Below, piece by piece: positions 7,382 to 55,492 of a stretch of 64,000 bases of DNA (its first letter is position 1; each line of letters begins with the position of its first letter). The notes beneath the pieces were generated by a model that worked only from the letters and a program-made list of their open reading frames with translations, was not told the DNA's origin and ran no database searches. Source of the DNA: Marivirga tractuosa DSM 4126 (GTDB lineage Bacteria; Bacteroidota; Bacteroidia; Cytophagales; Cyclobacteriaceae); NCBI RefSeq assembly GCF_000183425.1, contig NC_014759.1, positions 2,573,001-2,637,000 of the forward strand. Direction: 5' to 3'. The translations under genes and the position numbers were made by a program.

Positions 7382-10300
7382 TTAATTGGTGACTGCAAAT
7401 TTCATCATTTTACGCTCTCCATTTTGGTTGGTGAGGATTAGATTATACATTCCTGTTTTTAAAGAAGATGTTTTCATTTCATAATAGCGCTGGCTTTGCA
7501 ACAGGCTAAATTCTATGATAGTTTTTCCAGTTACATCAATCACTTTAGCTTTAACCTCCTCTTGAAGTGGGCTATCTAATTGAATCTTCAAAAAGTCATG
7601 TGCCGGATTTGGATATAGTTCTATATTTAAGGCCCCTAATTCTTTATTCAATGCAGTAACATTTGATAAAGAAAGCAATGGCAAATCCCCTAAGTAAGCT
7701 GACTGAATTACTGCTTTTGTGTTAATATTTTGCAAAAATGCCACTACCGCCAAAGGATTTTCATCCGCACTGCTACTCGCTTTGAAGGTAACCGTTTGCT
7801 GTCCACTAGTACCGGAAACCTTTGCACCACCATTTCCTGGTAATAATTTGCGTAAAACATTATGGTAGGTAATGCCTTCTTCAGTGCCTTGCTCACCTCC
7901 AATAATTTCTTTTTGAAGAACTGCGATGAATAAATTCACATTTTCTCCTACTGGTTCGACAGAATTGAATTTAGCCACTATTTCTAGCTCACTCTCATTA
8001 ATTTTAGATGCCTCCACATCTATACTTGAGATACTACTAAATAATCGAGCTCGGCTTAACTCATTTATTCCAAAATCACTATCTCCATCTTCACCGGCAA
8101 ATGAAAAATCATTTATTGCTCCATCAATTGCAAATTGATCCTCGAAAGAATAAGCCTCATAATAGTAAATTCTTGACAGCATCGAAGAGGATGCTTGCTT
8201 ATAGAGCGGATCGTTTTCATTAATTCTGTAGTTGATCCAAGCAAAATTACCTACGTCATTAAATACAGAATTGATAGTTTCCATTTCCTGAGGATCAGCA
8301 CTACTTTCAAAATCACCAAAATATTCAACCAATACATTTCTATTTAGGCTTTCAATCTTAAAATTATCAAAAGCAGCTCCATCCCTGTTCCCAAATTCAC
8401 TTTCACTTAAAGTAGATTTAAATTGGAATCTGAATATTAAATTTTCGCTTCCGTCTAAAGCTTCCAATGAGTGCTTAGCATTAACAGGGACAATGCTTTC
8501 AGCATCATTCTCTTCAGACCATCCCACAAATAAGCCATTATTATTAATCCCATCAAGGTTGATGGTTCCAGGTTGAGATTCAATTCGGTCATCATTATAC
8601 CATTGCAATCCTGAAGAAACATCTCCCAAGAGACGCCATTCCTTCTCAGGATCTTCAATCACTTTTCCATCAGTAGAATATTCTAAAATCAGGCCGTCAT
8701 CCCCTTCCGCCATATTCTGCCAAAGATCAAAACTCACCACAGGGCGATCAATATTACTGATATCCATAGAAGGGGAATAAACATAAGAAACTACTCCGGA
8801 TTCGTAAGAGCCTTCAGCATTAGTGATCCATAGGTGTTCGTTAGATTCAATGTTGGATTCTCCAGATGGTATAGCAAAATCCCACAGCCTTTTTTCAGTA
8901 TTAGCTGTATTCCTTTTAAAGCCATTACTTACCCAGCCCTCCGATGATGTATCAAAATTAAAAACATAGCGATCTGCTACCGTTTCCTCGGGTAGAATAA
9001 CTATCTCTTTACTTACTTCAGCTGAACAACTCTTTAGGCTAGAAACATTGAAATTAACTCTGTATCGTCCTGCACCATAGCTATTGAAATCTACTGCTAT
9101 GGTAGAATCATTAACTTTAGTAAAAGCATCCGCCCCAACTAATTGCTCTACCTCACCACTAATATTAGTAATTGTCCATTCAGTAGAAGCTAATGCAGCT
9201 TGATTAGGTTTGCCTGTAAAAATAATAGGCTCTTGCCCAAAAGTAGATTTGTTCCAGTCAAAATCAGGATTGTCAATTTTTCTAAAGGTAACTTCAGTAG
9301 CATTACTAACACACGGCACTTCTTCCTCTCCTTCACTATCAACATTTCTTCGGATAACATTGAAAGTTATTTCATCTACTGTAGTGAAGAAATCTGGGGT
9401 TGGCGAATAGCTTCTACCTTGATGAATTGGCTCGGCATTAAAATCAGTTCCCGTAAACCACAATAATTCCTCATTAGCTTTATCCCCATCATAATTTTCT
9501 ACTATGGCTGTATCCATTACACCATCCACAAAACATAAATCTGTTGAATTAACAACGGGTTTAGAGGGCTGTCTCCATACTAGAAAATTATATTCTCTTG
9601 AGTTCTCACAAGAATTACCATCTTGGTAAGTATAGTTTATAAAAATCCTAATGGAGTCTTCACCATTATCAACAAGATAAGCTAACAATGGTGCCGGGTC
9701 AAATTCAAAACCATCTAAACTGTCACCAATGACAAGGCTATCAGGCAATCCTTCATTAATCAACTGAAAGGAATAGTTATTTCCGGTAATACCAATTGGT
9801 TCAAACTCAATTTTTTCATCATAGGTACATATACCGGCTTCAATATCATCTATTTCTAATACTGGTAAAGGATTTACAATTACGATTTGCTCTCCCACAT
9901 TGTCAGCATTATTTGAAGCATCATTTGGATCTTCAATAGAATAGGTAATGGAAATTACACTTGGATTTTCAGAGTTAGGATTACTTTCATAAGCAGTTTC
10001 TGGGTCAAAAATCGCTCTTAAAACAGAGATTGTATCATTTCCTACCACGACATCTGTATAGCCAATTTCCGTAATACCTGGTCCATTTATGGCACTTACT
10101 ATAAACCCATCAGGAACAATAGCATTATCAACGCTTATGGTGTCGGCTGCATCCAATTGACAGTATTCTTCCGCCAAGGCAGGGAAAATTCTTTCGGCAT
10201 CAAACACATTAAATGCTATTGTATCGGTAGCAGAACAACCAAATTCGTTTGTAAAAGTAAAAAATACTTCATGCACATCTTCCTCGTCCGTGATATCAGT

Positions 10301-13300
10301 AACACCTAATTGACTGCTATCCAAGAAATAATCACCATTGCTGTTTTGAATAACTCCTTTACCAGAAAACTGTCCGTTTTCACTTGTGGCATCTACCAAA
10401 TTCCCAGCTGTGCCACCTTCCCCTTCTAGTGGAATTAATGCTGTAGTATTTGAAATGGTAGTGGTGGAATTATACTTAATATTGGCTATTGGCAATGGTT
10501 TTAAAGCAATAAAGAAGGTATCTGGTTTACTTATACAGCCCGTATTAGGGTTTAATTCTTGAACTACTAAAGTATCGGTGGTTTCTGTTGTCACCTCTCT
10601 AAAATTAACAAATACAAGATTGCTATTGGTAGCACCGTCAAACTGATTTAAACCATTAGTAAAACTCCATTGGAATGTATTTCCAGGAGAAGTTGCATTC
10701 ATTCTAAAACGTACTTCTTGTTCTCCAGCACAAATAATTTCAGGACCAGAGGATTTAGTTGGGTCAGGTATATCATTTATTCTAATATTGACTTCCCTTG
10801 GAGCTGGAATAGCTCCACATCCAACCCCTGAAACCAAAACTGGCAAAACTTCCAAAGTTGATCGTCCTTCAAGCATTTCTTGCGGACTGGCTTTATAAAT
10901 TGGGTTAAGTACATTAGAAGTTAATGAATAAGCGACTTGGTCTTCATCGTCTTTAAAACCCCATGTGCCATCGTGTCCTGCTTCTTCATTAAAATCATCT
11001 ACTCTTGTCCACTCCACAGATAGGTCATCGGATGCACTTCCGCCAGAAACTGTACTGGATAAACTTGCAATTGCAATTTGATTTCCATTTTCATCTTCAT
11101 CCAAACAAATTGCCACGTTTCGATCAGAATTAACGGAAATGCTTTCTACAAATCGAACGGTTACAAAATCACTAGTTCCCACACAAGGGTTTAGTCCTCC
11201 AGGGTCATCCGAGGTTAATTCTAGCACAATTTCACCTCTTACTCCATCAGCAAAGCTTGCATAATATTTTACTGTATCGGGTCTGTCCGTTTGAACTGAT
11301 TTAAGTGTGAAGTCTGGTGAAAAACCACCACCGTTTGAACTTGGCCCTTCATCAATACTCCAAGTACCCTGCTGCACAGTACCTGTTATTTCCGGACTGT
11401 TAGTGACTAAACTTAGATCTGAAAAATCAATAACACTTGTATTTGCACCGCACAGTTCAATAACTCCAAATTCTTCATCTTGAGATTGAAAGCCACCTGC
11501 ATCCACTCTAGAACGGATATATTTTACGACCTCAACATCAGATCCCAAATCAGGCGCACTACAAGTATTGAGATCATCATCTTCATCCGTCAAAGACACA
11601 ATTCTAACATTATTTTCTGCAGAATCTGGTGGTACGATAGAAAACGTCTGTCCCTCTTCATAACCCGTAATAGTAATAGGATCATTGGTATTAACTTGAT
11701 AAACCAAAGTATAAACTCCAGAACCACCTACTATATCAACCGAAAATTCAACGTCAATTACATTACCTAGGTCATCAATATCACATATTGCATCATCAGT
11801 TGGTTCTACCAGGGCTAATTGCGCACTGCTAGGCCCTACCTTAATAGGATCAACAGAAGTAGTGCTTGCATTTTCTGTATTTCCCGCTTGACCCGTTTGT
11901 TTGTCTAATGTAATAGTACCCGGTACCGTACCAGCCGGCACTGTAAATTCAATTGTTTCATCGTCTACCACGATAAAAGTGGAGATGGTAAAAGGAGAAG
12001 CACCATTAATATTGGTGCGAATTCTACTAACCCCTGTGAAGTACTCGCCTTGAATAGTGAATGTTTCTCCGACACAAGCACCAATAGAAAAGTTATCGAT
12101 TCTGGCAGGGCCAAAAGTGGTAAATGACCAAATATTATCTGCTGTGAATCCAGCAAATTCATTTCCTGCACGATCTACCAAAGCACCCGCATCGAATTGG
12201 ATATAATACTCGGTAGAGTCTTCCAAAATATTTCCAAAGGAACTAAATTCTAAAATAGAGCTGGTATTATTTGTAAAAGCAGTACCAGCATCCAATACAG
12301 CCAATACATCTAATGTTTGCTTATCAATTATTGATATGTTATTTGTTCCTTGTCCTGAAACAGGCTCGTTTAATTCAATTGTAAATGTCAATGAATGAGA
12401 AACATTGAATTCGCCATTGAAAGGAGTGAATGGATCATTGGCTAATTCAGGGTCTTGTGTATCAATAGTGATGTCGGTATTCCCACTTAAGGAGTTTGCA
12501 CTTCCAACGGCTGGCAATCCTAAACTTGCATTAATTCCTGCCAAATCCTCAATTGTACCACCATTTAGGTCTATGCTATTTACAGTAGCATATTCTAAAT
12601 CTGTAACATCCAGAATTGCGCCTCCATCAGAGGCCTCAACAGTATAATTAAAGGTAAGAATGGTAGAATTGGAACCACTCACATATTCAGCATTGGAACC
12701 AGTATTTAAAGTGAGCAATGGAATTCCGCTAACCTTCACTGTTTCGTCAAACTCTATTGTTATACCGATTTGATCTCCTGTTGTAAAGAATCCTTGATCG
12801 GTAGTTGCTGTCACATTCACAATATCCGCAGGATCGGAATCCACTTGAATATCAGCATTGTCTTGAAGGCGGTTTGGATCAGCAGGCAAAACAATATCAG
12901 CTTCATTACTGACTAAATCCCGAATATTACCACCATTCATATCGAATGCATTTACATCCAAATCAAGCGTGTTTTCACCAGAACTAACGCCTCCAACGGT
13001 GTAAACAAAGTTCACTTCATTTCCATTTGTAACACTTTGGAAAGAAGCTTGCCCACTTGAATTTAAATCCAATAAAGGATTTCCACCGACCGTTACATCT
13101 TCATCGAAAACCAACTGAATATTAATATTGTCACCAGGACTGTACAAACCGTTGGCACTAGCAGAAACGATTTCAAGTATTCTTGGTCTTTGAGTATCTA
13201 TGGTGAAAGTTCCAGATGTGTTGGTAATGGCAGTATTGCCAACTAAATCTGTCGCTCCAGAAACCTCTATGGTTACATTTTGAATTTCTTCTTCTGTAGG

Positions 13301-16300
13301 ATTATGTATAAAAGTAGCGATATATTCGGTTGCAGAATTCCAGCTTCCATTATCCAATATCAAATTGTTAGATCCTTGCACACTGAAATTTGGAGTTGTG
13401 TTTTGATCCATATCTTCATTATAGGTTGCAGTAAGGATCAGTTGATTATTATCACGAGTAATCACCGTTTTATCTAAACCGATTGTTAGGGTTGGTGAAG
13501 TAGTATCAATAATTAAATCAGAATTATCAAGCAAACGATTCGGGCTGGTCGGTAAAGTTAAAACGGAAGAGTTGTTCACCAAGTCCAGTATCTCAATCTG
13601 AGAATTTGATATCGCAGTCACATTCAAATCAGTAGCGTTTTCTCCTGAAGCAGTGGCTCCTATTGTATAAGTGAAATTTAGTTCGTTCCCGTTTGTGATA
13701 TTATCGAAAGTAGCCGTAGCCCCAGTATTTAAGGTTAAAGTAGGGGCAGTTCCTATTTGTTGAATAGCTTCATCAAATACAACTTTAATATTGATGTTAT
13801 CACCAGGGCCGTAGGTTCCGTTTGGAGTTGAAGCTGTAATTTCAGTAATCCTCGGGCTTTGAGTGTCAATATCAAAAGGATCTGAGTCAGCAGTAACCGC
13901 TGTATTACCAACTAAATCAGTTGCGCCACTAATTTCAATGATCACATTATCAAATTCTTCTTCAATTAATAAATCATGTTCAAAATCAGCTTCATAAGTC
14001 TGAGCATCTAACCAAATGCCGCCTTGAAAGCTAATGTTACTACTATTACTAAATGAGAAGTTATGAGTACTGCTTTGATCCATATCTTCATCATAATTGA
14101 TTTCTAAAGTAAAGGTCGAATTAGTTTGACTTACCGTAGATGGCGTTATGGTTGTACTACTAATTTCAGGTGCTCTAGTATCAATCTTGATTGGCTTGAG
14201 AGTTGATAATTCATCGGCTGGATCAGTAGGTAAAGTTAAAACTGCTTCATTATCTATCGTATTTGTAACGCTTGCTCCTTCTAGATTAAATGCATTTACG
14301 TTCAATAAAGCAACATTCTCCCCAGCTAATACTTCATAATTAAAAGTTAGGATGTTATTGGATACATTATCAAAAACAGCAGTTCCTCCTGAATTCAAGC
14401 TTAATTCTGGTGTCCCAGAAACAACCTTCATATCTTGATCAAAATAGACTTCAATGTAAATGATATCCCCCGCTTTATAAGTACCAGTTACATTAGAAGC
14501 TGTTATAGACTCCAATCTTGGTCGAGAAGTATTGATATTGAAAATATTGGATTCACTAGGATCCATTATATTTCCGGCCATATCTGTGGCTCCTGAAATA
14601 AGTAACTTATCAGATATCTCTTCTTCCACAGTCAAATCATGAGTAAGCGAGACGGTATAAATGTTAAATCCATTGCCCACTACTTCCTCTGTCCAAACAC
14701 CATCATTATTATTATCTAAATTATTGGAAGTGTTGGCCTCTACAGTTGGGTCAATGGTGTTATTCATAGATTTATCGAACTTGACAGACAATTCTATGGT
14801 GTTTTGAGGTCTATTCACCAAAGTTTTGTTCAGGCTTACATTTACAGTTTTAGGATTTTCAGTATCTATAGTAAATAGATCTAAAATAGTAGCATCATCG
14901 AGTTGATTTCCTGATATATCAGCAGCATTAGAAATCAAAACATCAATATTTTCAACCAACTCATCTTGATCGGATAAATCAAAAAAGAAAGTGTAAACAG
15001 TATTTCCAGCGGACCAGCCCCCAGTACCGTTTGGCCCTGCTAGGCTACCACCAGTAATAGGATGCTCATTTGGAAATGAAATTTCAGGATTGAAAAGAAT
15101 GCTATTATCCATTTCCTCATTAAAAGTAACTTGGATTTCAAGTGCATCTGTTCCTAAATGAGCACCAGATAAAACAGTTGGGGAAGCCGTTACCTGACTG
15201 ACTTCCGGTTTAGTGATATCCTCAAATGCATAAGTCTTGGAAAAGTTAGATGCATTTATGTTAGCTGAATTAGTGAAGGTAATATGGGCAATATCCAGCC
15301 CGACAGTTAAATCAGGTGTATCAAATTCATTAACTGTATTATCCACATCCACAATCAGGAAGTAATTTTTGGTTTCAGAACTTAGGTTTTCAGTTAAGCC
15401 TGTAAAAGTAATTGTGTTAGCACCATTATCGATCGTTGGTGAAGAGGCAATTACAGCATCTGTAATAGTTCCGTCATAGGTATTATCAGCTGAAGCGGCC
15501 AATCGAATATTATTCACCTTATTGCTTAAATCGAGATTGGTTGAGAATTCGATTGCTTGCATTTGGGTAGTCCCTAATGCATCAATTGCTAAGCCCAATA
15601 AAGCCTGATCAGTAGCTCCACTCTGAAGAGTACCGCTATTCAACCCATTCGTAAGTTCTGCTAAACCTAGTGTTGGATTTACTGTAACCTGAGTAGAAGA
15701 AACATCAAAGAGACTACTGCCATCTGTTACGGTTAATGTTCCATCACCACTGCCCTGGTAATTAAAATTTGCAGGAAACTCAAATTCTCCATTAGTAAAA
15801 CTTGGATTCAACGGCAAATTACTCATTGGAATATTATCTGCATTTGTAATGCTAAAGACGCCATAATCTAAGTCTAAATTTCCATTGGCATCCTTAGCCT
15901 CTACTATTGCCTGAGGTGTTACATTTTCGCCAGCATTTACTGCAGCAGGAGGGTCAGCTGTAAACTCAAATTCAGTAGCTTCTACAACAATTTCATTATT
16001 GCCGTTTCCTGACGAAATAGTTGGAGAAGTAGCGTCAAATTTCGTTGAATTAGCCTCCACCAAAACGTCCGCTGGAGCTAACTCAAACACTAAATTTTTA
16101 TTGTCAATTTCAGCAGCACTGATTACTTCATTTAATCTGACTTGAAGTTGAAATCTGAGAGAGGTACTTTCCTCTAAAAATCCAATTTCAGTATCATTAT
16201 CATTTTCATTGCTTGGAATATCAACTGTAATATTATCATTATTCACGGTTATGTTACTTGTCTGTGTTATGCTGCGCGTCACATTAACCAATCTAGCCTC

Positions 16301-18703: not shown

Positions 18704-18725
18704 ATTAAAATTTCCTTTCAACCTT

Positions 18726-19904
18726 CTAATTCACCAATCTTCCGAACTTATCTGTTTTAATCAACAATAATGTGTTTTCTATCCCAATCTCCGTTGATCC
18801 AATAGAATAAATCTGATCATTGATCATTACCGCATCATGCAATTCCTCGTCTTCATCACTTCCAAAAGAATTTGAAAATGACTCTCCACCATTTGGCCCT
18901 CTTCTTGACAAATAAAAATCTAAATGACTTCCACCTTCTTGTCCAATAACTTCGGTAGAACCCGCCACTAAATATCCATTTTCAATTTTCTTAGCCCCAT
19001 TCAGTCGATTTTCACCCTTTTCTCCAAAAATGACGGGATCAGCAGCTGAGAATACTTCATAGAAAAACAACATTCTTTGTTCTTCCTTTTTATTATCAAG
19101 CTCCCCTAAGATTACTATTTTGCCCTCTTGAGTTTTAATTAATTTTTTGGACAAAATATTTTCACTATCATCAAAACTTAAAGCATCTATATCATCAATC
19201 TGTTGCATACTTCTATTAGGGCTTCTCACTAATTCAGAGTTTCCTGTATTATAAGCCCAAATCAGACCTCCAGTGGCATCTTCTAAAATAGGAGTAGAAG
19301 GTAGTGCTTTTGCCTTACTAGTAGTGTACGTTTGATCAATTGATAAATCAGATGCATTTAATTGACCATATAATGTATACCTTTCTGAATCATTCCATTC
19401 GGAGCCTCCAAAATATATTTTCGAAGAGGTTTCATCATAAGATATTCCGGTAAGGTCATAATTCTCCATATCCGAACTGTAAAATCCACTTTTTACAGAA
19501 TCGAGCTGTGCATTAAGCTCTAAAAAAAATAGGCTTTCATTATTATTCCCCACAGTTCCACCTAAAACAATCCTTTGATTTTCTATTACTATAACATCCT
19601 TTACGTTCCAAGCTTGATTCAATCCTTCGGGAAAATACTTATCACTACCATTAATCACAGTACCATTTAAATCTGTTCTCAGTATTCTAATTTTATTAGA
19701 TGAATTACCTCTAATCGTGCTATTTGACACAATCAGCAAACCTCCGTTAAATTCATTGACAGATAATGGCGCATCAGTACCTTTTCCCTGAATGATTTTT
19801 ATATAGGAATTTTGAGAAACGGGACTTAAGTCTTCTTCTGTATTGCAAGCACCAATTGCCAATATTACCAAGCATGAGAATATGGTATATATTAAGTATT
19901 TCAT
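18726..19904 (-). CDS. Lipoprotein, probable beta-propeller
   Basis: A 392-residue protein with a lipoprotein signal peptide (LVILAIGACNTEE, Cys20 as the lipidation site). The rest consists of repeated strand patterns with aromatic and glycine turns (KIIQGKGTDAPLSVNEFNGGLLI, then ENQRIVLGGTVGNNNESLFFLELN and KIENGYLVAGSTEVIG), like the six- or seven-bladed propellers of delta-60/kelch-like Bacteroidota lipoproteins. No catalytic residues are evident. The start overlaps the stop of the outer-membrane barrel gene by 4 bp, and the stop is next to the start of the giant surface-protein gene. The context suggests an outer-membrane partner of the barrel and the giant protein. Confidence 0.7.
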   Translation of the reverse strand: MKYLIYTIFSCLVILAIGACNTEEDLSPVSQNSYIKIIQGKGTDAPLSVNEFNGGLLIVSNSTIRGNSSNKIRILRTDLNGTVINGSDKYFPEGLNQAWNVKDVIVIENQRIVLGGTVGNNNESLFFLELNAQLDSVKSGFYSSDMENYDLTGISYDETSSKIYFGGSEWNDSERYTLYGQLNASDLSIDQTYTTSKAKALPSTPILEDATGGLIWAYNTGNSELVRSPNRSMQQIDDIDALSFDDSENILSKKLIKTQEGKIVILGELDNKKEEQRMLFFYEVFSAADPVIFGEKGENRLNGAKKIENGYLVAGSTEVIGQEGGSHLDFYLSRRGPNGGESFSNSFGSDEDEELHDAVMINDQIYSIGSTEIGIENTLLLIKTDKFGRLVN

Positions 19905-20938
19905 TTTATTAACTCAGGATTAAAACGTGGAAAACGAAAGCCTATTCTCAGTATCAAAGCATGTCCTTTTAATTGCCCGTCTGCATAACCAGCTTGGATT
20001 AAATCAGGAAGTGTTTCTAAACGCTCATCAGGATTTAACTCTCTGTTCTCTTCTAGAAATCTATATTGAAAAAGCGCTTCAACTGTCATGAAATTCCTTC
20101 CGATTATCTTAAAATTAGCCCGCAGCCCCAAAAGAGCGCTCAAGTTCATTTGGTTTCTATACTCAAGCATATCTTTATTATTAATTTCCTCATTAACCCC
20201 CGTTACGCTTAAACTTGAAGAAATTAAATAATGAAAAGAAGGGCCGCCAGTGGCTTCTAAAAGAAAGCGGTTGACCATTGGTATTTTATAATTTACTAAT
20301 AAGGGTACTTCTACCCACTGTTGAGTTTCACTAATTATTTGAATACCATCTGAATTCCCTTCTGTTCTTTGTATTTGCCTTTCTAGTACTGTTCTTCTAA
20401 AATTATAGTGAGTTTCAATATTAGCGGAAAAATCCTCATTGATTGGATACTGGAAGAACAATCCTCCTGAAAGACCAATTGGAGGATCATAACTACCTGG
20501 CTGAGCTGATCTGTAAACAAAATTAGGTGCAATGTCTAATATGTTATAAGCAGCAGCACCTTTAAGCCCAAAGAAAAACTTAGGTTTTGTATCATATCTT
20601 TCAGATAAAATAATAAGCTCTGTTGGATCTGATTCAAGGTTCACTTGATATTCAGGTTCTATTTTCAGTAATCTCAAATAAGAAGCTTCCGCTTTTTGCT
20701 CTTCTTCATCAAATAAATAGGAAAGCGTTACTAATCTTAAGGCTTCTACTTTTTCTTCTTTCGTAAAACCATTATCAATACATGTCAGTAAAAGCTTGGG
20801 TAACTCATTTAGTTTTCCTGCATCATAAAAATTTCTGGCTTCTCTCAGGTTTTGTACGCAAGAAGTTTGTGCTGAACCATAAAAAGGAACTAGAACTACC
20901 AAAGAGCTCAGAAACAATATAATTTTAATTAGCCGCAT
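19901..20938 (-). CDS. Outer-membrane beta-barrel protein with N-terminal periplasmic helical domain
   Basis: A 345-residue protein with a signal peptide (residues 1-23, ending YGSAQ). Residues 25-110 are helical and TPR-like (SCVQNLREARNFYDAGKLNELPKLLLTCIDNG, then a second helix pair with EEEQKAEASYLRLLKIEPEY), resembling periplasmic domains placed before barrels. From about residue 120 the pattern alternates polar and aromatic residues in amphipathic strands (FFFGLKGAAAYNILDIAPNF, GLSGGLFFQYPINEDFSANI) and ends in LILRIGFRFPRF, as in PorT/OmpA-like eight-stranded barrels. The gene start overlaps the STAND gene stop by 14 bp and its end overlaps the lipoprotein start by 4 bp, so the three are probably translationally coupled. 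Confidence 0.72.
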   Translation of the reverse strand: MRLIKIILFLSSLVVLVPFYGSAQTSCVQNLREARNFYDAGKLNELPKLLLTCIDNGFTKEEKVEALRLVTLSYLFDEEEQKAEASYLRLLKIEPEYQVNLESDPTELIILSERYDTKPKFFFGLKGAAAYNILDIAPNFVYRSAQPGSYDPPIGLSGGLFFQYPINEDFSANIETHYNFRRTVLERQIQRTEGNSDGIQIISETQQWVEVPLLVNYKIPMVNRFLLEATGGPSFHYLISSSLSVTGVNEEINNKDMLEYRNQMNLSALLGLRANFKIIGRNFMTVEALFQYRFLEENRELNPDERLETLPDLIQAGYADGQLKGHALILRIGFRFPRFNPELIK

Positions 20939-23900
20939 CGGATAGTTTTTCTAAATTTTCACATGTTTTTTCATAAGGTAGATCGCTACCCACATAAGTT
21001 GCCCATTCAGTTGTGCTCATATTTCGATCCAATTCGTCACACAGCTGATTGCCCATTAAGTCAATAGAATAAGGCCAAACATGAACCATCCCATCTTCAG
21101 ATACTGAAAATATCCACTCATTATTAGCACTAAAATCTGTAGACCAGACCCAGTCACTATGGTCAGATAATACAATCGGAGCTTGTGTGATTTCTGAGAG
21201 ATTCCATACCCTAACGGTCTTGTCTTTACCAGCTGATAACATGGCTGCGCCATTGCCGCTTATTTTTAGCTCATCTATTCCACCTATATGACCCGTTAGA
21301 GAATTAAAACTAGTGAAATTGTAGTCAGAGAATAATCTTACACCTCCATTCACATCTCCTATTGCTAAAAAGTTATATTTAGAGGTGATAGCTGTAATTG
21401 TTTTTCCATTTTGATACATTACGGTATCATTTTCACCAGTTTTATTAATGCGGTATAAATCACCATTATCAGCCGCTAACCATACATACGGCTTATTTTG
21501 ATCAACTGCAAAATCATTTATTTTAACCTTAGAGTTATATACATTTTGACTTTTTCCATTCTCCATGATTTTAATGGCCTTTCCACCTTCATCCAAAATC
21601 CATAACTTATCATCCGCAAAATGCATTTTAACAAAAGAGCCTTTTACTCCTTTAATTATTTCTGGATCTCTACCGTTTTCATTAAGGTCATATTTCTCTA
21701 TGATCGACTCTCCTGCTTCGTTAATGAACTGACCTGCCGCATAGATATGATTTTTATCTTGATCAAAAATCATTGATTTTACAACTCTTCTATTTCTTAT
21801 GGAAGCAATAGTATCAGCCACCCATTGATTTCCGGTCTTTTCCCATTTTAAAATACTTCCTTGGGAGCCAGCAGAGAAAAATTCATTATCACTGGTTCCT
21901 CCCAGCACTACTTTTGCTGATTTATTGTGACCATTAATTTTATTAGCTAATGGGTGATTAAATTCTTTGAGTGCATAATATAACCCATCGTATATTTCAG
22001 GATCATAATTATAGCTGCTATTGCGCTCATCAAATTCGTAGGCTTGTTGTGCCATCAATCCTTGTAATTGCGGATCATTTAATTGCGTTGATTTTACGGC
22101 CATAGCATTGGCAATGGCTAAATAACGCAATTGATCTGCTCTGGCTTTTTCTTGTTCAGCCCTTTCTTTTTCCTCTAGTGCCACTTTTTCCTGTTCGCGT
22201 GCCTTTTTTGCTGATTCGCTTGCTTCTCCTTCTGCTTTTTCCGCTGCAATTCTCTGTTTTTTGGCGATCTCTGCTTGCTCAGTTGCTCTTATCTCCTGAA
22301 TTCTAGCAATTTCTGCACTTTCTATTGCTCTCTCTCTTTGCTCATTTGCTTCTTTTTCCTTTTCCTCTGCCAATTTCCTTTGTTGCTCTGCTATTTCTGT
22401 TTGTTCCTTAGCACGTGCTTCTTCTTGTTTGGCTAAGTCTAAATTTTTCTCAGCTATAGTTTGTTGATAAAACGCATATACAAGAAATAAAATTGAAACT
22501 ACCGCAGCTGAAGCCATAATTAAAGCAGTAAGTCTGGCTGTTCTTAGCCTTCTTTTTTGTTGTAATTCCTTAGCTCTTTGTTCTATTTCATATTCCTCCT
22601 CAGAATGCTCCAAGAAAGAAATAGTTCTTTCATAAGCTGGATGATAGCGTTGCCCCCAAATCAAGGTTGGATTATGCTTTTCCTGCCAATTCATTGCCAA
22701 TTGCAAATCAGGTGGACGCCACAAACTGGTTTTGCCTTGCTGAAACATATCAGCAGCCTCGGCTAATCTCTTATACATTGCCACAGCATCTGCTTCATCG
22801 TTTACCCAGTTTTTCAGACGGTTCCAAATTCTCATTATACTTTCATGAGAAATATCAATAATTGATTGACTATGCAATGGAACACCATATTGAGGTGTTA
22901 ATAAAGATCTTCCCGGATCACGGAACTTCTCAATTACTTGGATAATCTTTTCCTCGGAAGTATTGGCAATTGCGGCAATTTCATGAAGCTGGGTTGGTCT
23001 TCTAATTCCATAGCTGCCTCCCCCTCTTTTTTCGGTTATTGCTTTAAAAAGAAACTCACAAATTCTTTGTTGCTCCTCATCAAGCTCTTCATAGGCTTCG
23101 TTGGCATGCATTGACAATGCCTCTGACATTGTACCAATAGCTTCATAATGCTTGATATCAAGTGGTTCCTCATCATAATCCCTAAAGTGGCTCCAATAAT
23201 CCCAAGTACGCATTAATGCATGTTGCAAAATAGGCAACTGGTCTGGGTTATCGCCTAAGTCATTTAACAATTGCTGTGTCAATCTTGGAGCTATTTCTGC
23301 ACTTCCTACCGCTACTGGTCCAGTAATAGCTCTTCTCTTTTGTTCCCGGGTCATTTGCGGGATCAAATATTGGCTGTCATTGATTTGCTTGGTCAATTCA
23401 GGAAATTGAGAACACTCCCCAATAAAATCCGACCGCATAGTAATAGCTATATAGATGGGCACATCTGCATGATTGATAGCTTCCATTAATAAGTTAATAA
23501 AAGCTAGCGTCTCATTTACTGACTGCAAATTGGAAGAATCTTTAAAGCGGAACAATTCTTCAAATTGATCGACCAGTATTAGATAATTTTTTTCTTTGTC
23601 CCCTTTAAATTGCATGATGGTTTCTACCAAACCAACCGAAGAACTCCTTAGGAGTGAAGAAATTATGGTTTTCTTGATTTGTTTATCTTCTTCGGACAAT
23701 TTTTCATCCACTAAATCTGTTTTAAGAAGGGCTTGAGCCAAATTGTCTATAGGTGCTGCTCCTGGTCTTGTTACAACCACTTCCCATTCTGTGGATCTTC
23801 CAGTCAAAAAACCACCATATAAAATTGGCAATACCCCACAATAGATAAATGAAGATTTACCACTTCCAGAAGGACCTATAACACCAACAAAGCGATGTTT

Positions 23901-24056
23901 TGAAAGCTTTAACAATACCTCATCACTTTGACCTTCCCTGCCAAAAAACAGGTGGCTTTCTTCAATTTTGAATGGGCGCAAGCCCGGGAAAGGATTGTTT
24001 TTCTTCCCGTATTTCGATTTCGGTTTTTCTAATATGGTAGTGTTTTGATCCTTCAT
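20925..24056 (-). CDS. nSTAND1 NTPase with one transmembrane segment, coiled coil and WD40 repeats
   Basis: A 1,043-residue signalling NTPase. The N-terminus PFPGLRPFKIEESHLFFGRE is the signature entry of nSTAND1 proteins. Walker A is GPSGSGKSS (about residues 60-68), Walker B LILVDQFEELFRF (about 160), and ITMRSDFIGEC is the sensor-like arginine block. A winged-helix region follows, then a basic stretch (KRRLRTAR) and a transmembrane segment (about 506-528). The positive-inside rule places the NTPase in the cytosol and the rest in the periplasm. A long Glu/Lys/Ala-rich coiled coil (530-655) leads to WD40-like repeats (about 705-1030, for example GHIGGIDELKISGNGAAMLSAGKDKTVRVW). STAND proteins are ligand-triggered oligomerising switches; the effector here could be the TIR-like protein encoded 1 bp upstream. 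The gene overlaps the barrel gene. Confidence 0.85.
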   Translation of the reverse strand: MKDQNTTILEKPKSKYGKKNNPFPGLRPFKIEESHLFFGREGQSDEVLLKLSKHRFVGVIGPSGSGKSSFIYCGVLPILYGGFLTGRSTEWEVVVTRPGAAPIDNLAQALLKTDLVDEKLSEEDKQIKKTIISSLLRSSSVGLVETIMQFKGDKEKNYLILVDQFEELFRFKDSSNLQSVNETLAFINLLMEAINHADVPIYIAITMRSDFIGECSQFPELTKQINDSQYLIPQMTREQKRRAITGPVAVGSAEIAPRLTQQLLNDLGDNPDQLPILQHALMRTWDYWSHFRDYDEEPLDIKHYEAIGTMSEALSMHANEAYEELDEEQQRICEFLFKAITEKRGGGSYGIRRPTQLHEIAAIANTSEEKIIQVIEKFRDPGRSLLTPQYGVPLHSQSIIDISHESIMRIWNRLKNWVNDEADAVAMYKRLAEAADMFQQGKTSLWRPPDLQLAMNWQEKHNPTLIWGQRYHPAYERTISFLEHSEEEYEIEQRAKELQQKRRLRTARLTALIMASAAVVSILFLVYAFYQQTIAEKNLDLAKQEEARAKEQTEIAEQQRKLAEEKEKEANEQRERAIESAEIARIQEIRATEQAEIAKKQRIAAEKAEGEASESAKKAREQEKVALEEKERAEQEKARADQLRYLAIANAMAVKSTQLNDPQLQGLMAQQAYEFDERNSSYNYDPEIYDGLYYALKEFNHPLANKINGHNKSAKVVLGGTSDNEFFSAGSQGSILKWEKTGNQWVADTIASIRNRRVVKSMIFDQDKNHIYAAGQFINEAGESIIEKYDLNENGRDPEIIKGVKGSFVKMHFADDKLWILDEGGKAIKIMENGKSQNVYNSKVKINDFAVDQNKPYVWLAADNGDLYRINKTGENDTVMYQNGKTITAITSKYNFLAIGDVNGGVRLFSDYNFTSFNSLTGHIGGIDELKISGNGAAMLSAGKDKTVRVWNLSEITQAPIVLSDHSDWVWSTDFSANNEWIFSVSEDGMVHVWPYSIDLMGNQLCDELDRNMSTTEWATYVGSDLPYEKTCENLEKLSDAAN

Positions 24057-24057
24057 T

Positions 24058-25518
24058 TTAGCTATCTCCTGCCATTTCTAGCTGCGTTTTATCAAATGCC
24101 GCTTTTATATCCTTTATAAATTTATTCAATTTTTTTGAATCTTCACTAATATCTACCTCAACTTCGTATTGGTTAACATACTCATTCTCAGAGCCCTTTG
24201 CCTTCTTAGATTTAAACATTTTGCCTAAAATGGGCTTTGATCTTCCAAAACCGGGCGCCTTCAACAAATCCAACAATTTCATGTAAACCCATTGATTATT
24301 AACATTTTCTTGGAATACTATAGCAGCATCCATCTGCTTCAAAGCATCGATATGCTTATTCCTCAATTCCATTAATCCTCCCTGACTTTCCAAAGTCAAT
24401 ATTTTAACTTGTTGGTCATCAATTTTAGAGATTAATCTTTCAGCTTCCTTTTGATCCGACTCATCATAAATTAAATATATGATAGGTAATTTTTGGTCTT
24501 CCTGGGGATAGGCGTTTCTTAACTTTTTATTTAATCCGCTATCTAAGAGTTCCTCCCATAAAGTGTTTTTGAAATCTTCAAGAGAGGTTTGCAATACCTC
24601 GGCTCCTAAAGAAGATTTATCATCTCTTTTTATATTATGAATGAATGATTTTTGCTTTTCGCTGGCAAATTTCAATGAAGGGCTGATCCATATTAGGCGA
24701 TTAAAACTATTTGGCGACTCTTCATATTGATCTGCTGCTAAGCCATTTTGAATATCCATAACAGATGAGTCTGAACCATGCGGTATGGAACCATATGAAG
24801 CGCCAACCATATGAATGGAAAACTGGCACTTTTTCAAATCCTCTTTAATGGATTTTTTCATTTCTGTGAAATTATGTGGTAATAATCCCTTAGGATAAAC
24901 CTCATATCCATGACGGCTTAATTCCCGTTTGATTATATTCCTTGCGCCTGCCAAATCTTGACCAGTGTCCGCCAAGTATACCGACCTTCTATTATGAATT
25001 AAATCTCCATTATTATTCTCATTGCCCATTTTCAATACGGTTTCATAAATATCAAAGCATAAATCCACCATCTTCATCCAATAGCCCTTTTCAGCCTCTT
25101 TGCTGAAAAAGTCTGAAAGTTCCTTTTCGTGATTTTCATAATCCAAATAGAAAATGTAAGCTCTTAATGGACGAAGTTTTTCAGGAATGTCAACAAAGTC
25201 TAAAGGGGATTTAAACACCGGAAATACTCTGTCGTGTATCTTTTCACTACTTTTGTTAAGGAACAAGGCTTCTAGTCTATCTAAACTTACTCCAGATAAA
25301 ATAAAATCTGGTGAGAGAATAGGAATATATATTCCATCCTTCGGTGAAGAGTTTTCAAAAGAATCAGACATCAAATGAATTTGAAATTGCCTGTTCATGG
25401 TCTGCTTGAGCATCATACTGAGGAATTTCTCAAAAAAGCTTACCCACCCCCTATTTTGCATGATAGGCTTATTATCATCTTCAGCGTATATAATATTTAT
25501 ATTCAGGTTTTCACTCAT
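24058..25518 (-). CDS. Putative TIR/DUF4062-like three-module signalling protein
   Basis: A 486-residue soluble protein without signal peptide or membrane segment. I see three Rossmann-like modules. The N-terminal one (about 6-135: INIIYAEDDNKP, then DGIYIPILSPDFILSGVS) resembles TIR domains. The middle one (about 178-265: RRSVYLADTGQDLAGARNII, CQFSIHMVGASYGSIPHGS) resembles DUF4062, which often precedes STAND NTPases. The C-terminal one (about 343-425: PIIYLIYDESDQKEAERLIS) is again TIR-like. I cannot point to a catalytic glutamate with confidence, so NADase activity is open. Its start overlaps the upstream MFS/HEAT gene stop by 4 bp (ATGA) and its stop lies 1 bp from the STAND start. It is most likely the effector or adaptor of the STAND protein. 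Confidence 0.6.
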   Translation of the reverse strand: MSENLNINIIYAEDDNKPIMQNRGWVSFFEKFLSMMLKQTMNRQFQIHLMSDSFENSSPKDGIYIPILSPDFILSGVSLDRLEALFLNKSSEKIHDRVFPVFKSPLDFVDIPEKLRPLRAYIFYLDYENHEKELSDFFSKEAEKGYWMKMVDLCFDIYETVLKMGNENNNGDLIHNRRSVYLADTGQDLAGARNIIKRELSRHGYEVYPKGLLPHNFTEMKKSIKEDLKKCQFSIHMVGASYGSIPHGSDSSVMDIQNGLAADQYEESPNSFNRLIWISPSLKFASEKQKSFIHNIKRDDKSSLGAEVLQTSLEDFKNTLWEELLDSGLNKKLRNAYPQEDQKLPIIYLIYDESDQKEAERLISKIDDQQVKILTLESQGGLMELRNKHIDALKQMDAAIVFQENVNNQWVYMKLLDLLKAPGFGRSKPILGKMFKSKKAKGSENEYVNQYEVEVDISEDSKKLNKFIKDIKAAFDKTQLEMAGDS

Positions 25519-28500
25519 ACTATTGATTGATAATGTTGGGTTATAGCAGTAAAAATTTGATTAGTAAACTCCTGACTTCTAGACATCAGCGTGTAGAAAT
25601 TATTAATATTCAATTGGAAAATAACGGAATCAGAGTCAGCTGTAATTTTAGTAGCTTTAAGGTGCTTCTCAGGTACAAATAATTCACCATAAACATCATT
25701 CTCTTCCAAGATAATATCTGCTTCAAACTCAGCTTCTAATTTGAATCTTCCTTCAGCTACAACATAGATTGCATTATTTTCAGCATCTGTTAAATCTATT
25801 GACTCTCCTTCAGTCATTCGAAGTATATGAGTATTATCAGCCAGATCACAGAGCTGTGCCCCGTTTATGTGAGAAAACACCTTAATTTTCTTCAAAAACA
25901 TTACTATTTCTACTAAAAGAAAATAGCCATCATTTAATCCATCTTCTAATTGATTGTGAGCAATGGTCTCAATTAAATCATCTTGATCTTCCTGTTTTAC
26001 CCTTTCAATTACGGCCTCAAATTTATTGGGTGACCTATGGTAAAGTAGCCAGGCAGCAACTTCTTGTAACAATCTATCATCATTAAATATATGGGCTATT
26101 ACAGCATAGTCGGGTTCATATTCATTCTGAAAAGCCAAATTGTATAATGCACAAGCCTTTATCCATCTGGATAACTGATTAAAATCTCGGTTTAATATAT
26201 TATTTAGAAGTCTTAACGGCTCAAAATGCTCTCTAGGAAAGAAATGATCTAATGCTTTAATTTTTTCACTTACAGAAATATCATCAATTAAGGGAAAGAG
26301 CTTAGATTTTAGTTCTGAATTAATAAACATATCAAGCAGCTCAATTCCATAAGCAATTCCCTCAGATGTTTCAGACAATATATTTTCCTTGACCAACGAA
26401 ACTGATTCTGTATCATATATCAAGGATAGAAATAAGAAAATCTGCTCATAATTATGACTGATTTCTTCTTTGAAGGCTTGACGAAGAACATAATACTGAT
26501 CTTCTTTTGGCAGTTCGGTTAAAGCCGCCATGTTCCAAACCGTTTTTCCAATTTCTTCTTCAATTAGAGTAATAATAATTTGTGCTTGATTCCCTTGTGC
26601 ATTGAAATCTTCATAGCCAAAGCCATTCAGCATTTCGTATACAATTCGTTTGTCAGGAAAGTCAATCTTCTTTAAAAGGAGCTTTTCAGCTTCATCTCCT
26701 CCTATTTTACCCATTATCCGAACTACTGCCATTTTTATTTTATCGGATTGTCCCGATTTATGAAAAGCTGACTCCAAATGATGAAGCACATCTCCTCTTG
26801 CAGCAACCAAAGCCGCTGCTGCAGCATGCCCGAATTTTTCTGAATCCAACATGTCAATCAATACATTCCAAGTTTCATGGCGCTTCAGAATCCTGGCGGT
26901 TTCTATAGCATCCATCCTAACTCTTAGATTTGCATCCTTTAAGAGATCTAGTAGTAAGAAAATATTTTTAGCATCGGCATGTTGCCTAAAAATTCTTGCT
27001 GTGTAGAGCCTTTTGTCAGCTTCCAATGATCTTGCCCAGGTACTTAATTGCTCAAATGTTACTGGGGTTACATCTCTCGATTGACTCTCTTTCAAGGCTT
27101 TTTCAGCCAACTTTCTTAATGTTAAGCCTGATCCTTCTGAAGAAGCTTGGTTCTTTTCACCAATGTATTCTTGCATCTTGGGTGAAATATCGCCTTTAAA
27201 ATTCTCTTTAAAAGATGAAAATTCCTCTGGCTCAAGCTTTTCCATTAGCTTTAAACTATAAAGCCTCTTATGTTCCTCCTTGCTATTGACCTGCTTCTGC
27301 AATAGTCTGCTGATAGAATTTTCATTTTCATCAACCTTATTCTTTTCTTTATTCCTTACTAATGTGCCTTGCAGCGTTGATCGATAGCCTTTATGTAGTT
27401 TTTGTGTCACTAAATACCATATTAGCAATAATGGAATAACTGCGATTGAAATTGTTAAGAGATTAAAGACCTCTACATTGTTTAGTAAAATAATGATAGC
27501 ACCGGCTATCATCCCTGCAAAAGCATTTACTAAGCCTTGAATTTTTACTTGAATATCAAACCTACTTTCCACATCAAGCGGAAGGAAATAGAGCTTGAAC
27601 GCAGGCTCATCCAAGGCATCTTTTAGAGAAGTAACAAAGAGTTTACTTACTGCAATAATCACAAAGAAGAAAATAAAAGTTGGGTCATCTGGAGTGAAAC
27701 CGAAGCCAGCGCCAATCAGACAGGCTGCACCAACCATAATGAGGATCAAGATAGGATTGATCAGTAAGGACACTTTCAACCCATAAAGAGCAATGATCTT
27801 ATCCGTTGCAAATGTTTGAAATAGAAAGCTGAAAATAATGATTGTACCATTGAAATAAGCTAAAAAGGTAGCTAAGTTGCTCTCATTAAACTGAGCGGAG
27901 GCAACACTGAAGAATGAGTAATCAATAAAGGTAATGGCCACAACACTCACTAAAACAAAGCCCACCATCAACAGCATATATTTGTCTGTGAGTACTTTTT
28001 TGTACGGAACAAATTTATTTCTACCTGCTTTAATTAAGAATTCTTTCGAACTATTCATTAGCCACAGGAAGGATAAAAACATTCCGCCAAGGCTAATAAC
28101 ACTCATGGTAATTAAATCTTTTTCAGCAAAATCAGGTCGGTTCAATAAATAGGGTATAATGATCAATAAAGCCAAAATCGATGCCGTCAATTGGCCAGTA
28201 TCAATTCCACCAATAATTCTTTTGGATTGACGTAAATCAAATAAGCGACCAAAAGCACCCCAGAATATCAGTAATATCAGGTATGTAAATGGAAGTACGA
28301 AGGTGAAAGTAATAAAATATAAAGGTGATACATCTGGAAGGTACGAATAAGCTATTTCCACTGCAATTAAGAGTAAAAATATGATAAGTAGGGTATATCC
28401 TGCTAATCGAACAAAACTGGTTTTTGATTGAAAATAATTGAAAAGATAAGTTGCCACTACTCCAATTGCACCAGAAACCACAATGGCTAAAGGTAAATCG

Positions 28501-28655
28501 GTCTCTTCATTGAAGTTGTTCAAAAACAAGGACTCTGCACCTACCGAAAGACCAGACACAAAAAAGCCCATAAAGAATCCCATAAGGAGCAATAAAAATA
28601 CTCGCTTGGACTCCGGCTCTTCTGCATTTAAAATGTTGAGGACCAGCTTCTTCAA
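25515..28655 (-). CDS. MFS/NTT-like membrane protein fused to HEAT repeats and a cNMP-binding-like domain
   Basis: A 1,046-residue protein and the first gene of the long operon. Residues about 15-415 hold roughly 12 transmembrane segments (LLLLMGFFMGFFVSGLSVGA, TYLILLIFWGAFGRLFDLRQSKRI, LLLIWYLV) of the kind seen in nucleotide-transporter (Npt1/NTT)-related MFS proteins; the GxxGRLFDLRQSKRxxGxI block is characteristic of that branch. A cytosolic linker is followed by HEAT-like repeats (about 538-700, for example DANLRVRMDAIETARILKRHE) and further helical repeats to about 900. The last 110 residues (DLADNTHILRMTEGESIDL, YVVAEGRFKLEAEFEAD) have the jelly-roll pattern of cyclic-nucleotide-binding domains but lack an obvious phosphate-binding cassette. 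It may transport or sense rather than act as an ADP/ATP antiporter. It shares a 4-bp overlap with the TIR-like gene. Confidence 0.75.
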   Translation of the reverse strand: MKKLVLNILNAEEPESKRVFLLLLMGFFMGFFVSGLSVGAESLFLNNFNEETDLPLAIVVSGAIGVVATYLFNYFQSKTSFVRLAGYTLLIIFLLLIAVEIAYSYLPDVSPLYFITFTFVLPFTYLILLIFWGAFGRLFDLRQSKRIIGGIDTGQLTASILALLIIIPYLLNRPDFAEKDLITMSVISLGGMFLSFLWLMNSSKEFLIKAGRNKFVPYKKVLTDKYMLLMVGFVLVSVVAITFIDYSFFSVASAQFNESNLATFLAYFNGTIIIFSFLFQTFATDKIIALYGLKVSLLINPILILIMVGAACLIGAGFGFTPDDPTFIFFFVIIAVSKLFVTSLKDALDEPAFKLYFLPLDVESRFDIQVKIQGLVNAFAGMIAGAIIILLNNVEVFNLLTISIAVIPLLLIWYLVTQKLHKGYRSTLQGTLVRNKEKNKVDENENSISRLLQKQVNSKEEHKRLYSLKLMEKLEPEEFSSFKENFKGDISPKMQEYIGEKNQASSEGSGLTLRKLAEKALKESQSRDVTPVTFEQLSTWARSLEADKRLYTARIFRQHADAKNIFLLLDLLKDANLRVRMDAIETARILKRHETWNVLIDMLDSEKFGHAAAAALVAARGDVLHHLESAFHKSGQSDKIKMAVVRIMGKIGGDEAEKLLLKKIDFPDKRIVYEMLNGFGYEDFNAQGNQAQIIITLIEEEIGKTVWNMAALTELPKEDQYYVLRQAFKEEISHNYEQIFLFLSLIYDTESVSLVKENILSETSEGIAYGIELLDMFINSELKSKLFPLIDDISVSEKIKALDHFFPREHFEPLRLLNNILNRDFNQLSRWIKACALYNLAFQNEYEPDYAVIAHIFNDDRLLQEVAAWLLYHRSPNKFEAVIERVKQEDQDDLIETIAHNQLEDGLNDGYFLLVEIVMFLKKIKVFSHINGAQLCDLADNTHILRMTEGESIDLTDAENNAIYVVAEGRFKLEAEFEADIILEENDVYGELFVPEKHLKATKITADSDSVIFQLNINNFYTLMSRSQEFTNQIFTAITQHYQSIV

Positions 28656-28694
28656 TTAGACTTAGTTTTCTTAGTTAGTGAATCGAAATTAAAA

Positions 28695-28726
28695 CAAATA
28701 TTCGTATTGTAATATTTTATCTACAA
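28695..28726 (-). promoter_or_regulatory. Candidate promoter of the six-gene STAND operon
   Basis: On the minus strand AATATTTG (7 of 8 matches to the Bacteroidota -7 box TAnnTTTG) lies 40 bp upstream of the MFS/HEAT start codon. A TTG, the -33 element, is 21 bp further up, which is the expected spacing. No other equally good site is seen in the 256-bp gap. Found by eye only. Confidence 0.4.
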
Positions 28727-45167: not shown

Positions 45168-45168
45168 A

Positions 45169-54657: not shown

Positions 54658-54658
54658 T

Positions 54659-55462: not shown

Positions 55463-55492
55463 ATTATTATATCTAAATTCAAGAAATTTAAT

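Follow-up and report, generated by a model that had tools for sequence, protein, structure and literature searches.

How might events at the surface of a Bacteroidota cell be read by a switch protein in the cytoplasm, across two membranes? The question is raised by six co-directional minus-strand genes at 7382-28655 of the window, the whole stretch of 64,000 nucleotides from the marine bacterium Marivirga tractuosa DSM 4126 that was analysed. An earlier note, made from the sequence alone, had described them as an overlapping series in which every envelope layer is represented, and both points held. The genes, called as open reading frames (ORFs), and a predicted promoter are:

28695-28726, candidate promoter (predicted)
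25515-28655, minus strand, NTT-HEAT-CNBD gene (CNBD, cyclic-nucleotide-binding domain), 1046 residues
24058-25518, minus strand, TIR/DUF4062-like gene, 486 residues
20925-24056, minus strand, nSTAND gene, 1043 residues
19901-20938, minus strand, outer-membrane protein gene, 345 residues
18726-19904, minus strand, lipoprotein gene, 392 residues
7382-18721, minus strand, gene of a giant type IX secretion system (T9SS) protein, 3779 residues from a TTG start

The junctions are, in order, a 4-bp overlap, a 1-bp gap, a 14-bp overlap, a 4-bp overlap and a 4-bp gap. These sizes agree with the earlier note except the last, given there as 5-22 bp: it is 4 bp with the TTG start and 22 bp with an in-frame ATG six codons later, which yields a giant of 3773 residues (about 3,770 had been noted). 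Most of the protein assignments were borne out as well. Pfam names DUF4062 on the second protein, nSTAND1 and WD40 on the third (with one transmembrane helix), OMP_b-brl_2 on the fourth and fn3 and Por_Secre_tail on the giant, and the lipobox Cys20 of the fifth is invariant in homologues. The first protein, described as MFS/HEAT, keeps the HEAT part (HEAT_2), while the generic MFS part is replaced by NTT, based on a profile match. NCBIfam gave no match over its cut-off for any of the six proteins.

The answer we lean towards is a trans-envelope receptor, encoded by this operon, that resembles FecA/FecR signalling in the way it works and uses STAND as its switch. A constant C-terminal module would keep the giant, once exported by the T9SS, at the surface, where a propeller lipoprotein and a small barrel would be its neighbours. 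The periplasmic N-terminal domain of the barrel would meet the WD40 propeller, which the STAND NTPase would extend through the periplasm on an Ala-heptad rod of about 18 nm that starts at a single inner-membrane helix. When something binds or pulls at the surface, the propeller would change, and the changed propeller would free the NTPase to exchange nucleotide and cluster. The cluster would recruit the TIR-like protein as an adaptor, not an NADase, with output to the NTT-HEAT-CNBD protein and, in a seven-gene version, also to a SpoIIE-type phosphatase. The gene set and its order, the topology signals, the paired cysteines, the domain swap, the constant and variable parts of the giant and the loss of a catalytic Glu can be read from the sequence; the physical contacts, direction, stimulus and output are what we infer. 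Of the surface-to-inside link proposed earlier, the conduit finds support in topology, paired cysteines and domain swap; TIR as a defence effector finds none.

Loci for comparison were picked by nSTAND similarity alone, not by gene context, and their neighbourhoods were scored with profiles. Forty places and 80 named loci (the best 80 of the named-genome scan, mostly from Cyclobacteriaceae and other Cytophagales, also from Bacteroidales, Sediminibacterium and Mucilaginibacter) gave 120 loci. A strong nSTAND frame was present in 118 of them; the two with weak frames were left out of the counts. The nSTAND sequences were distinct in 119/120 loci, and four further pairs were close. At E <= 1e-190, homologues were found in 20 of the 25 genomes of the family (the own genome included) and in 7 of 14 from the other families of the order, and any nSTAND match at 1e-3 in 36/39 of these genomes taken together. 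An even draw of 198 Bacteroidota genomes, with at most four candidates scored per listed genome, gave a match at 1e-140 in five, four of them from the same family, the own genome again included. From the counts at E <= 1e-190 and the phylum draw, the NTPase is therefore common in one family and scattered elsewhere.

The association of the genes exceeds chance. Directly downstream of nSTAND, 103 of the 110 loci with at least 900 bp there carry an outer-membrane-profile gene (93 small, 10 of TonB-receptor size). The remaining seven are two with the outer-membrane gene after a split nSTAND frame, four without a partner, and L146, where a downstream protein of 917 residues was not scored by the outer-membrane profile and has an N-terminus that aligned with TonB receptors. 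The lipoprotein is next after the outer-membrane gene in 80/86 small-barrel loci with 2.6 kb. On the upstream side, NTT lies within three genes of nSTAND in 44/60 loci and a SpoIIE-profile gene in 23/118. The full order of NTT, (one extra gene), TIR, nSTAND, outer-membrane protein and lipoprotein was found in 51 of the 97 loci that extend 3 kb or more upstream and 2.6 kb or more downstream.

The earlier note had proposed a search for conserved synteny, and within the genus the homologues of the six genes proved not to be mostly apart: nearly all lie in nSTAND clusters. Across ten genomes, the own one included, the clusters hold 18/18 matches to the N-terminal part of the outer-membrane profile, 18/18 TIR/DUF4062-like matches and 18/19 NTT-profile genes (the exception is G007:C54). 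Barrel-only matches outside the clusters begin at position 107 of the outer-membrane profile or later. The same M. tractuosa genome carries a seven-gene paralogue of the module, with relatives in several Bacteroidota orders; both versions occur in 8/10 genomes of the genus (one in fragments), and the other two have the paralogue type only. That the six genes form a conserved module is well supported in its parts and order; the signalling role is what we infer. Apart from this, L060 (G016:C2) has a frame of about 3000 residues after the lipoprotein on the opposite strand in an otherwise ordinary module. TIR-like and nSTAND genes also occur in two metagenome-assembled genomes labelled non-Bacteroidota (L137, Acidobacteriota, also with a receptor-size partner, and L154, Desulfobacter), by binning error or by transfer.

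The proposed transmitter is the nSTAND protein, whose parts are:

22557-23996, minus strand, nSTAND1 NTPase domain, residues 21-500 (PF20703, 2.1e-97), predicted cytoplasmic
22470-22526, minus strand, transmembrane helix, residues 511-529 (hydrophobic segment)
22080-22469, minus strand, Ala-heptad coil, residues 530-659 (17 consecutive heptads with Ala at one position)
20952-22019, minus strand, WD40 propeller and C-terminal tail (WD40, 4.1e-14), predicted periplasmic

Its nSTAND1 domain has the intact P-loop (G61, S63, G64, G66, K67, S68 and S69) and Walker B of a STAND NTPase; these P-loop residues and D163, Q164, F165, E166 and E167 are invariant in 28 nSTAND rows. The hydrophobic transmembrane segment is found at this site in 111/111 full-length homologues, five of which have one further weaker segment elsewhere, and Lys and Arg are richer before than after the helix in 110 of the 111 (equal in one). 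Cysteines were counted in the 82 loci with a small barrel and lipoprotein, which are related sequences. In the propeller tail, Cys1006 and Cys1032 are both present in 67/82, both missing in 15/82 and never single; in the N-terminal domain of the outer-membrane protein, Cys27 and Cys53 are both present in 76/82, both missing in 6/82 and never single. For three NTPase cysteines the counts are 70, 78 and 65 loci. On a simple reading the all-or-none pairs are disulfides, and would place the propeller tail and the outer-membrane N-terminal domain in an oxidising compartment. The charge bias and the cysteine pair together predict that the WD40 propeller is periplasmic.

The coil would make a rod of about 18 nm (119 residues x 1.5 A, by arithmetic, if helical). 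In 20,000 shuffles of the coil the longest Ala-heptad run was 9, against 17 observed, and runs of at least 8 were found in 86/110 relatives. Six nSTAND1-transmembrane control proteins (from Caballeronia, Acaryochloris (two), Microchaete, Hymenobacter and Nonomuraea), with no outer-membrane-profile gene in the fetched DNA, have runs of 2-5 only. A long coil was also considered as a marker of an outer-membrane partner and was given up on recheck; because exceptions were found both ways, its use here is limited to the comparison with the six controls.

The outer side of the proposed contact is formed by the outer-membrane protein and the lipoprotein:

20585-20866, minus strand, periplasmic N-terminal domain, residues 25-118 (predicted; perhaps TPR-like)
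19904-20569, minus strand, outer-membrane beta-barrel, residues 124-345 (PF13568, 3e-10)
18726-19904, minus strand, beta-propeller-like lipoprotein with lipobox Cys20, 392 residues

PF13568 matches the barrel in 30/38 homologues. On the N-terminal domain, TPR-type Pfam matches were found in only 1-2/38, and a TssQ-like NCBIfam match (4e-4) stayed below the cut-off. Following the signal peptide is a domain of about 95 residues that TonB-dependent receptors also have, located in the same place in 9/9; compared with 11 receptors by hhalign, the N-terminal domain matched at 99.6% (5.7e-25). On one receptor beside nSTAND, Pfam finds Plug and the TonB barrel. Judged by these alignments, the N-terminal domain persists where the barrel is swapped for Plug plus a TonB-dependent barrel, and its mean column identity is 0.50 against 0.35 for the barrel. 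No Pfam family was found on the lipoprotein; its profile matches the CylK propeller (2e-35), and Cys20 is the only invariant column, in 47/47 homologues.

Divergence rises outward through the envelope layers. Against the nearest genome (G006), nonsynonymous divergence (dN) is 0.033 for NTT, 0.065 for TIR, 0.076 for nSTAND, 0.153 for the giant, 0.184 for the outer-membrane protein and 0.200 for the lipoprotein. Identity to G006 within nSTAND is 96.2% for the NTPase, 55.7% for the coil and 86.5% for WD40, and within the outer-membrane protein 88.3% for the N-terminal domain and 67.3% for the barrel. Ratios of dN to synonymous divergence (dS) were not used because dS is above 1 in all pairs and saturated in many.

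The giant ends in one further feature:

7385-9232, minus strand, constant C-terminal module of about 600 residues

It consists of PKD-like, jelly-roll, Omp28-like and Ig-like parts and a type A sorting domain. We compared 31 large complete downstream ORFs, the window giant included, after setting aside four joined operons whose giants are incomplete, along with every giant truncated at the end of a contig or locus. The last 700 residues of the giant match 25/31 of these proteins, the first 700 residues 9/31 and residues 1201-2600 8/31, each count including the giant itself; the N-terminal and middle regions are variable, and seven of the matches to each of these two are from the genus. Six proteins do not match: the NTT proteins of L133, L135 and L146, a frame without sorting motif in L067, the large protein of L141 (which on inspection only resembles an outer-membrane receptor) and that of the masked locus L143. 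In the module alignment of 23 rows there are 22 invariant columns, the sorting domain has a YPNP motif, and Por_Secre_tail is found in 23/23 rows. Comparison of the giant with itself for repeats returned no rows. The genome has the T9SS (SprA translocon match, 2384.9 bits), and the giant qualifies as type A cargo.

Full-length copies of the constant module also bear on the main rival, the assembly of the giant, in which STAND and rod power or position its export, anchoring or deployment (for adhesion or gliding, say) under the control of the cytosolic proteins. We think this unlikely, although several observations fit it. The M. tractuosa genome has two full-length copies, those of its two gene modules. 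Among 23 near-full-length copies in 19 genomes, 15 are at nSTAND loci (the G009 copy only if its contig is circular, since it wraps the contig end), 7 are on contigs where nSTAND gave no match, and one is an orphan; the full-length module occurs almost only beside nSTAND. Downstream of the NTPase gene come those of the barrel, the lipoprotein and the giant, in this order, an NTT and nSTAND pair of Persicobacter psychrovividus lies inside the locus of a surface machine (a contractile injection system), and the species, as strain H-43T (DSM 4126), is motile by gliding according to the accessible text of PMC3111994. Against assembly, no giant was found among the listed genes in 8/9 TonB-receptor-type loci with a visible following gene (L137 has a gene of 2466 residues), and SpoIIE and STAS genes point to signalling. 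We also know of no dedicated STAND NTPase that T9SS export needs. Two frames stand by themselves: the orphan module copy (G028:C1:8869903-8871768) is in a frame of 4114 residues with no nSTAND match nearby, and a paralogue-type giant (G004:C1:3831031-3832959) is in an open frame of 6775 residues.

On the cytoplasmic side of the proposed receptor, the second protein is soluble and probably has three tandem TIR-like domains. DUF4062 matches at residues 180-253 (2.4e-6), the N-terminal part gives a profile match to the TIR of TLR6 (5.2e-4), and the third domain resembles the second (hhalign 72%). Three equivalent TIR repeats were considered and rejected, as domain 1 matches neither 2 nor 3 by hhalign; because domain 1 is unlike the others yet matches TLR TIRs in the PDB search, the three domains are only probable. 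One codon is of special interest:

24748-24750, minus strand, codon 257 (Gln), aligned with the catalytic Glu of DUF4062

The position was aligned with canonical DUF4062 proteins of relatives, which have Glu in 4/4. In 55 rows of homologues it is Gln in 45, Glu in 5 and another residue in 5. The third domain has an invariant Trp (55/55) with Lys four residues on in 47/55. In the first, the commonest residue at position 81, which we take, going by TIR motifs, to be the counterpart of the catalytic site, is Glu (13/55). The protein is thus predicted to be catalytically dead, and because the catalytic Glu position is mostly replaced we read it as an adaptor, not an NADase. The M. tractuosa genome also encodes, elsewhere, a canonical DUF4062 protein whose catalytic position is Glu (G000:C2:305432-305680).

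The earlier suggestion of TIR as an immunity effector is therefore disfavoured. In an anti-phage or abortive-infection system, STAND would sense phage at the surface and the TIR/DUF4062 domains would destroy NAD. DUF4062 proteins are reported to be TIR-like NADases with a catalytic Glu and an anti-phage member, Swarozyc (preprint PMC13174449, accessible text), genes for TIR and STAND do occur in pairs, one of them on a Caballeronia plasmid, and Glu is kept in the five homologues counted above. Yet the replacement of Glu by Gln and the Lys of the third domain argue otherwise. PADLOC found no convincing family: its four matches to the window proteins (E 5.7e-4 to 3.5e-3) fall on the P-loop of nSTAND and on the CNBD-like C-terminus of the first protein, and the TIR protein has none. 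The same upstream gene is kept in six window-type relatives fetched from the genus, and the presence of both versions in most of its genomes is unlike patchy defence islands. With PADLOC and the catalytic Glu both disfavouring it, defence is a very improbable role.

The first protein combines, according to profile searches, an ATP/ADP-carrier-like (NTT) part, HEAT repeats and a cyclic-nucleotide-binding-like C-terminus in one chain. A profile of 37 homologues matches the ADP,ATP carrier 9j3n at positions 110-425 (2.8e-23), alpha-repeat proteins at about 546-697 and CNBDs at about 931-1040. On the single window sequence, Pfam gives HEAT_2 (4.2e-8), with cNMP_binding below the cut-off and no NTT domain named. 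The three parts are not all found in the first gene of the paralogue, whose protein shows six hydrophobic segments within the N-terminal ~210 residues that are not recognised as NTT; 10 of the 18 clustered NTT-profile genes of the genus are of this type, matching only from profile position ~450.

The extra gene of the paralogue encodes Reg_prop and SpoIIE (Pfam), and a SpoIIE phosphatase is the probable output route of the paralogue. In L096, the single Bacteroidales locus scanned, HAMP and SpoIIE occupy that position, and L135 has a protein with Reg_prop, Y_Y_Y and HisKA nearby. On a Runella rosea plasmid, STAS and ATP-binding genes precede nSTAND, and ATP-binding and SpoIIE genes follow NTT. 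Because of the SpoIIE in the paralogue and these Runella rosea genes, partner-switching control of transcription suggests itself as the output; the six-gene operon of the window has no gene of SpoIIE/STAS type. The same plasmid carries nSTAND, a TonB receptor, an NTT-profile gene and a histidine kinase in one stretch (L184 8522-26229). On plasmid pPP2 of Persicobacter psychrovividus, an NTT-profile gene and nSTAND, with no barrel or giant adjoining (L182 12795-18994), lie between two arms of the contractile injection system locus (sheath, baseplate, tape measure) and may be the trigger of that system.

Several results weigh against a trans-envelope receptor. Some lineages do without one part or another. 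The outer-membrane partner is absent in 4/110 loci (L130, L134, L141, L148). The TIR-like gene is directly upstream of nSTAND in 74/113 loci, with NTT in that place in 21 more. An NTT-profile gene was found at -3 to +4 genes in 36/43 loci and is absent in 7/43, and the first gene of the paralogue (845 residues) has only the HEAT-CNBD half of the NTT profile. Ala-heptad runs are below 8 in 24/112, most with an outer-membrane partner, while long runs occur without one in L130 (14), L134 (17) and the Persicobacter protein (13); L141 and L148 have runs of 5 and 3. The cysteine counts, coming from related sequences, may reflect few events. Faster evolution of surface parts is general. In distance co-variation the partial r of propeller and N-terminal domain is only 0.156, below those of propeller and barrel (0.605) and propeller and lipoprotein (0.527), a pattern that may come from a shared rate or from contact elsewhere than proposed.

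The absence of NTT in those seven loci also bears on nutrient uptake or sensing, in which a nucleotide-like nutrient, captured by the surface protein together with the barrel or TonB receptor, would be imported by NTT, with STAND regulating the uptake. The resemblance of the NTT part to ATP/ADP carriers and the replacement of the barrel by TonB-dependent receptors agree with such a role. It is nevertheless improbable, as the paralogue also lacks a recognised NTT membrane part and NTT-HEAT-cNBD fusions are functionally uncharacterised in the accessible text of PMC5381601.

Taking the receptor reading further, we propose, at slightly less than even chances, a Bacteroidota receptor class. It would combine a cytoplasmic NLR-like STAND, a WD40 sensor on a periplasmic rod, mostly inactive TIR adaptors and interchangeable outer-membrane receptors (a small barrel with a giant T9SS ectodomain, or a TonB-dependent receptor), its constant docking parts and fast-diverging giant forming a surface-recognition repertoire. 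STAND switches are familiar from the cytosol, where they act as sensors of death and immunity (see also PMC13174449). If the receptor reading is true, Bacteroidota monitor their surface across two membranes with such a switch, a docking domain has moved between unrelated barrels, and the uncharacterised NTT-HEAT-cNBD proteins and inactive TIR repeats gain a context.

Elsewhere in the window, a long co-directional run at 43265-62478, with an ABC ATPase and several glycosyltransferases followed by a T9SS protein of 1940 residues with many PKD domains, is probably a surface polysaccharide cluster. At 3004-4209 a protein of the FGE-sulfatase family is encoded, a fold also used by T9SS/gliding lipoproteins.

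No paper on this gene-set composition was found in a literature search that covered few preprints or subscription papers, and because of this coverage the result is weak evidence of novelty. Parts of the module resemble known systems. With type A surface proteins of the T9SS the giant shares the C-terminal sorting domain and its YPNP motif, and it differs by the constant module before that domain. NTT-HEAT-cNBD fusions have been described, and Bacteroidetes NTTs counted, in PMC5381601; the three-part architecture is the same, and the window protein sits in a conserved envelope gene set that the accessible text of that paper does not mention.

The nSTAND1-transmembrane proteins of Cyanobacteria, an actinomycete, Caballeronia and Hymenobacter, found on plasmids, share nSTAND1 followed by one transmembrane helix, WD40 in those so annotated, and a TIR-like gene upstream in Caballeronia and Hymenobacter. 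They differ in their short heptad runs and in having no outer-membrane-profile gene in the ~10 kb fetched. On plasmids of Caballeronia sp. SBC2 (L186 2823-8037) and Hymenobacter tibetensis (L190 737-6651), a homologue of the window TIR protein lies directly before the nSTAND1-transmembrane gene, with no long coil and no outer-membrane-profile gene in the fetched DNA; this is possibly an older pair. In DUF4062-NACHT-WD40 proteins (TEP1, NWD1, NWD2) and Swarozyc, as presented in the accessible text of PMC13174449, a DUF4062/TIR-like part stands beside STAND with WD40 in the same order. The module in the window differs in having separate genes, nSTAND1 instead of NACHT, a propeller predicted to be outside the cytoplasm via a membrane helix, and a replaced catalytic Glu position.

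The closest comparison is with FecA/FecR/FecI, where the periplasmic N-terminal signalling domain of an outer-membrane receptor speaks to a single-pass inner-membrane protein; in FecR-type proteins the periplasmic part receives and the cytosolic part transmits. Pfam scans of the six window proteins and one TonB receptor gave no STN, FecR or ECF sigma domains, and because these defining parts are absent from the proteins scanned, the module is not filed under FecA/FecR. What is shared is an outer-membrane receptor with an extra periplasmic N-terminal domain. What differs is that the receptor here is in most cases a small barrel, after which come a lipoprotein and a giant T9SS protein, and that the proposed transmitter is a STAND NTPase with its WD40 propeller on a long coil.

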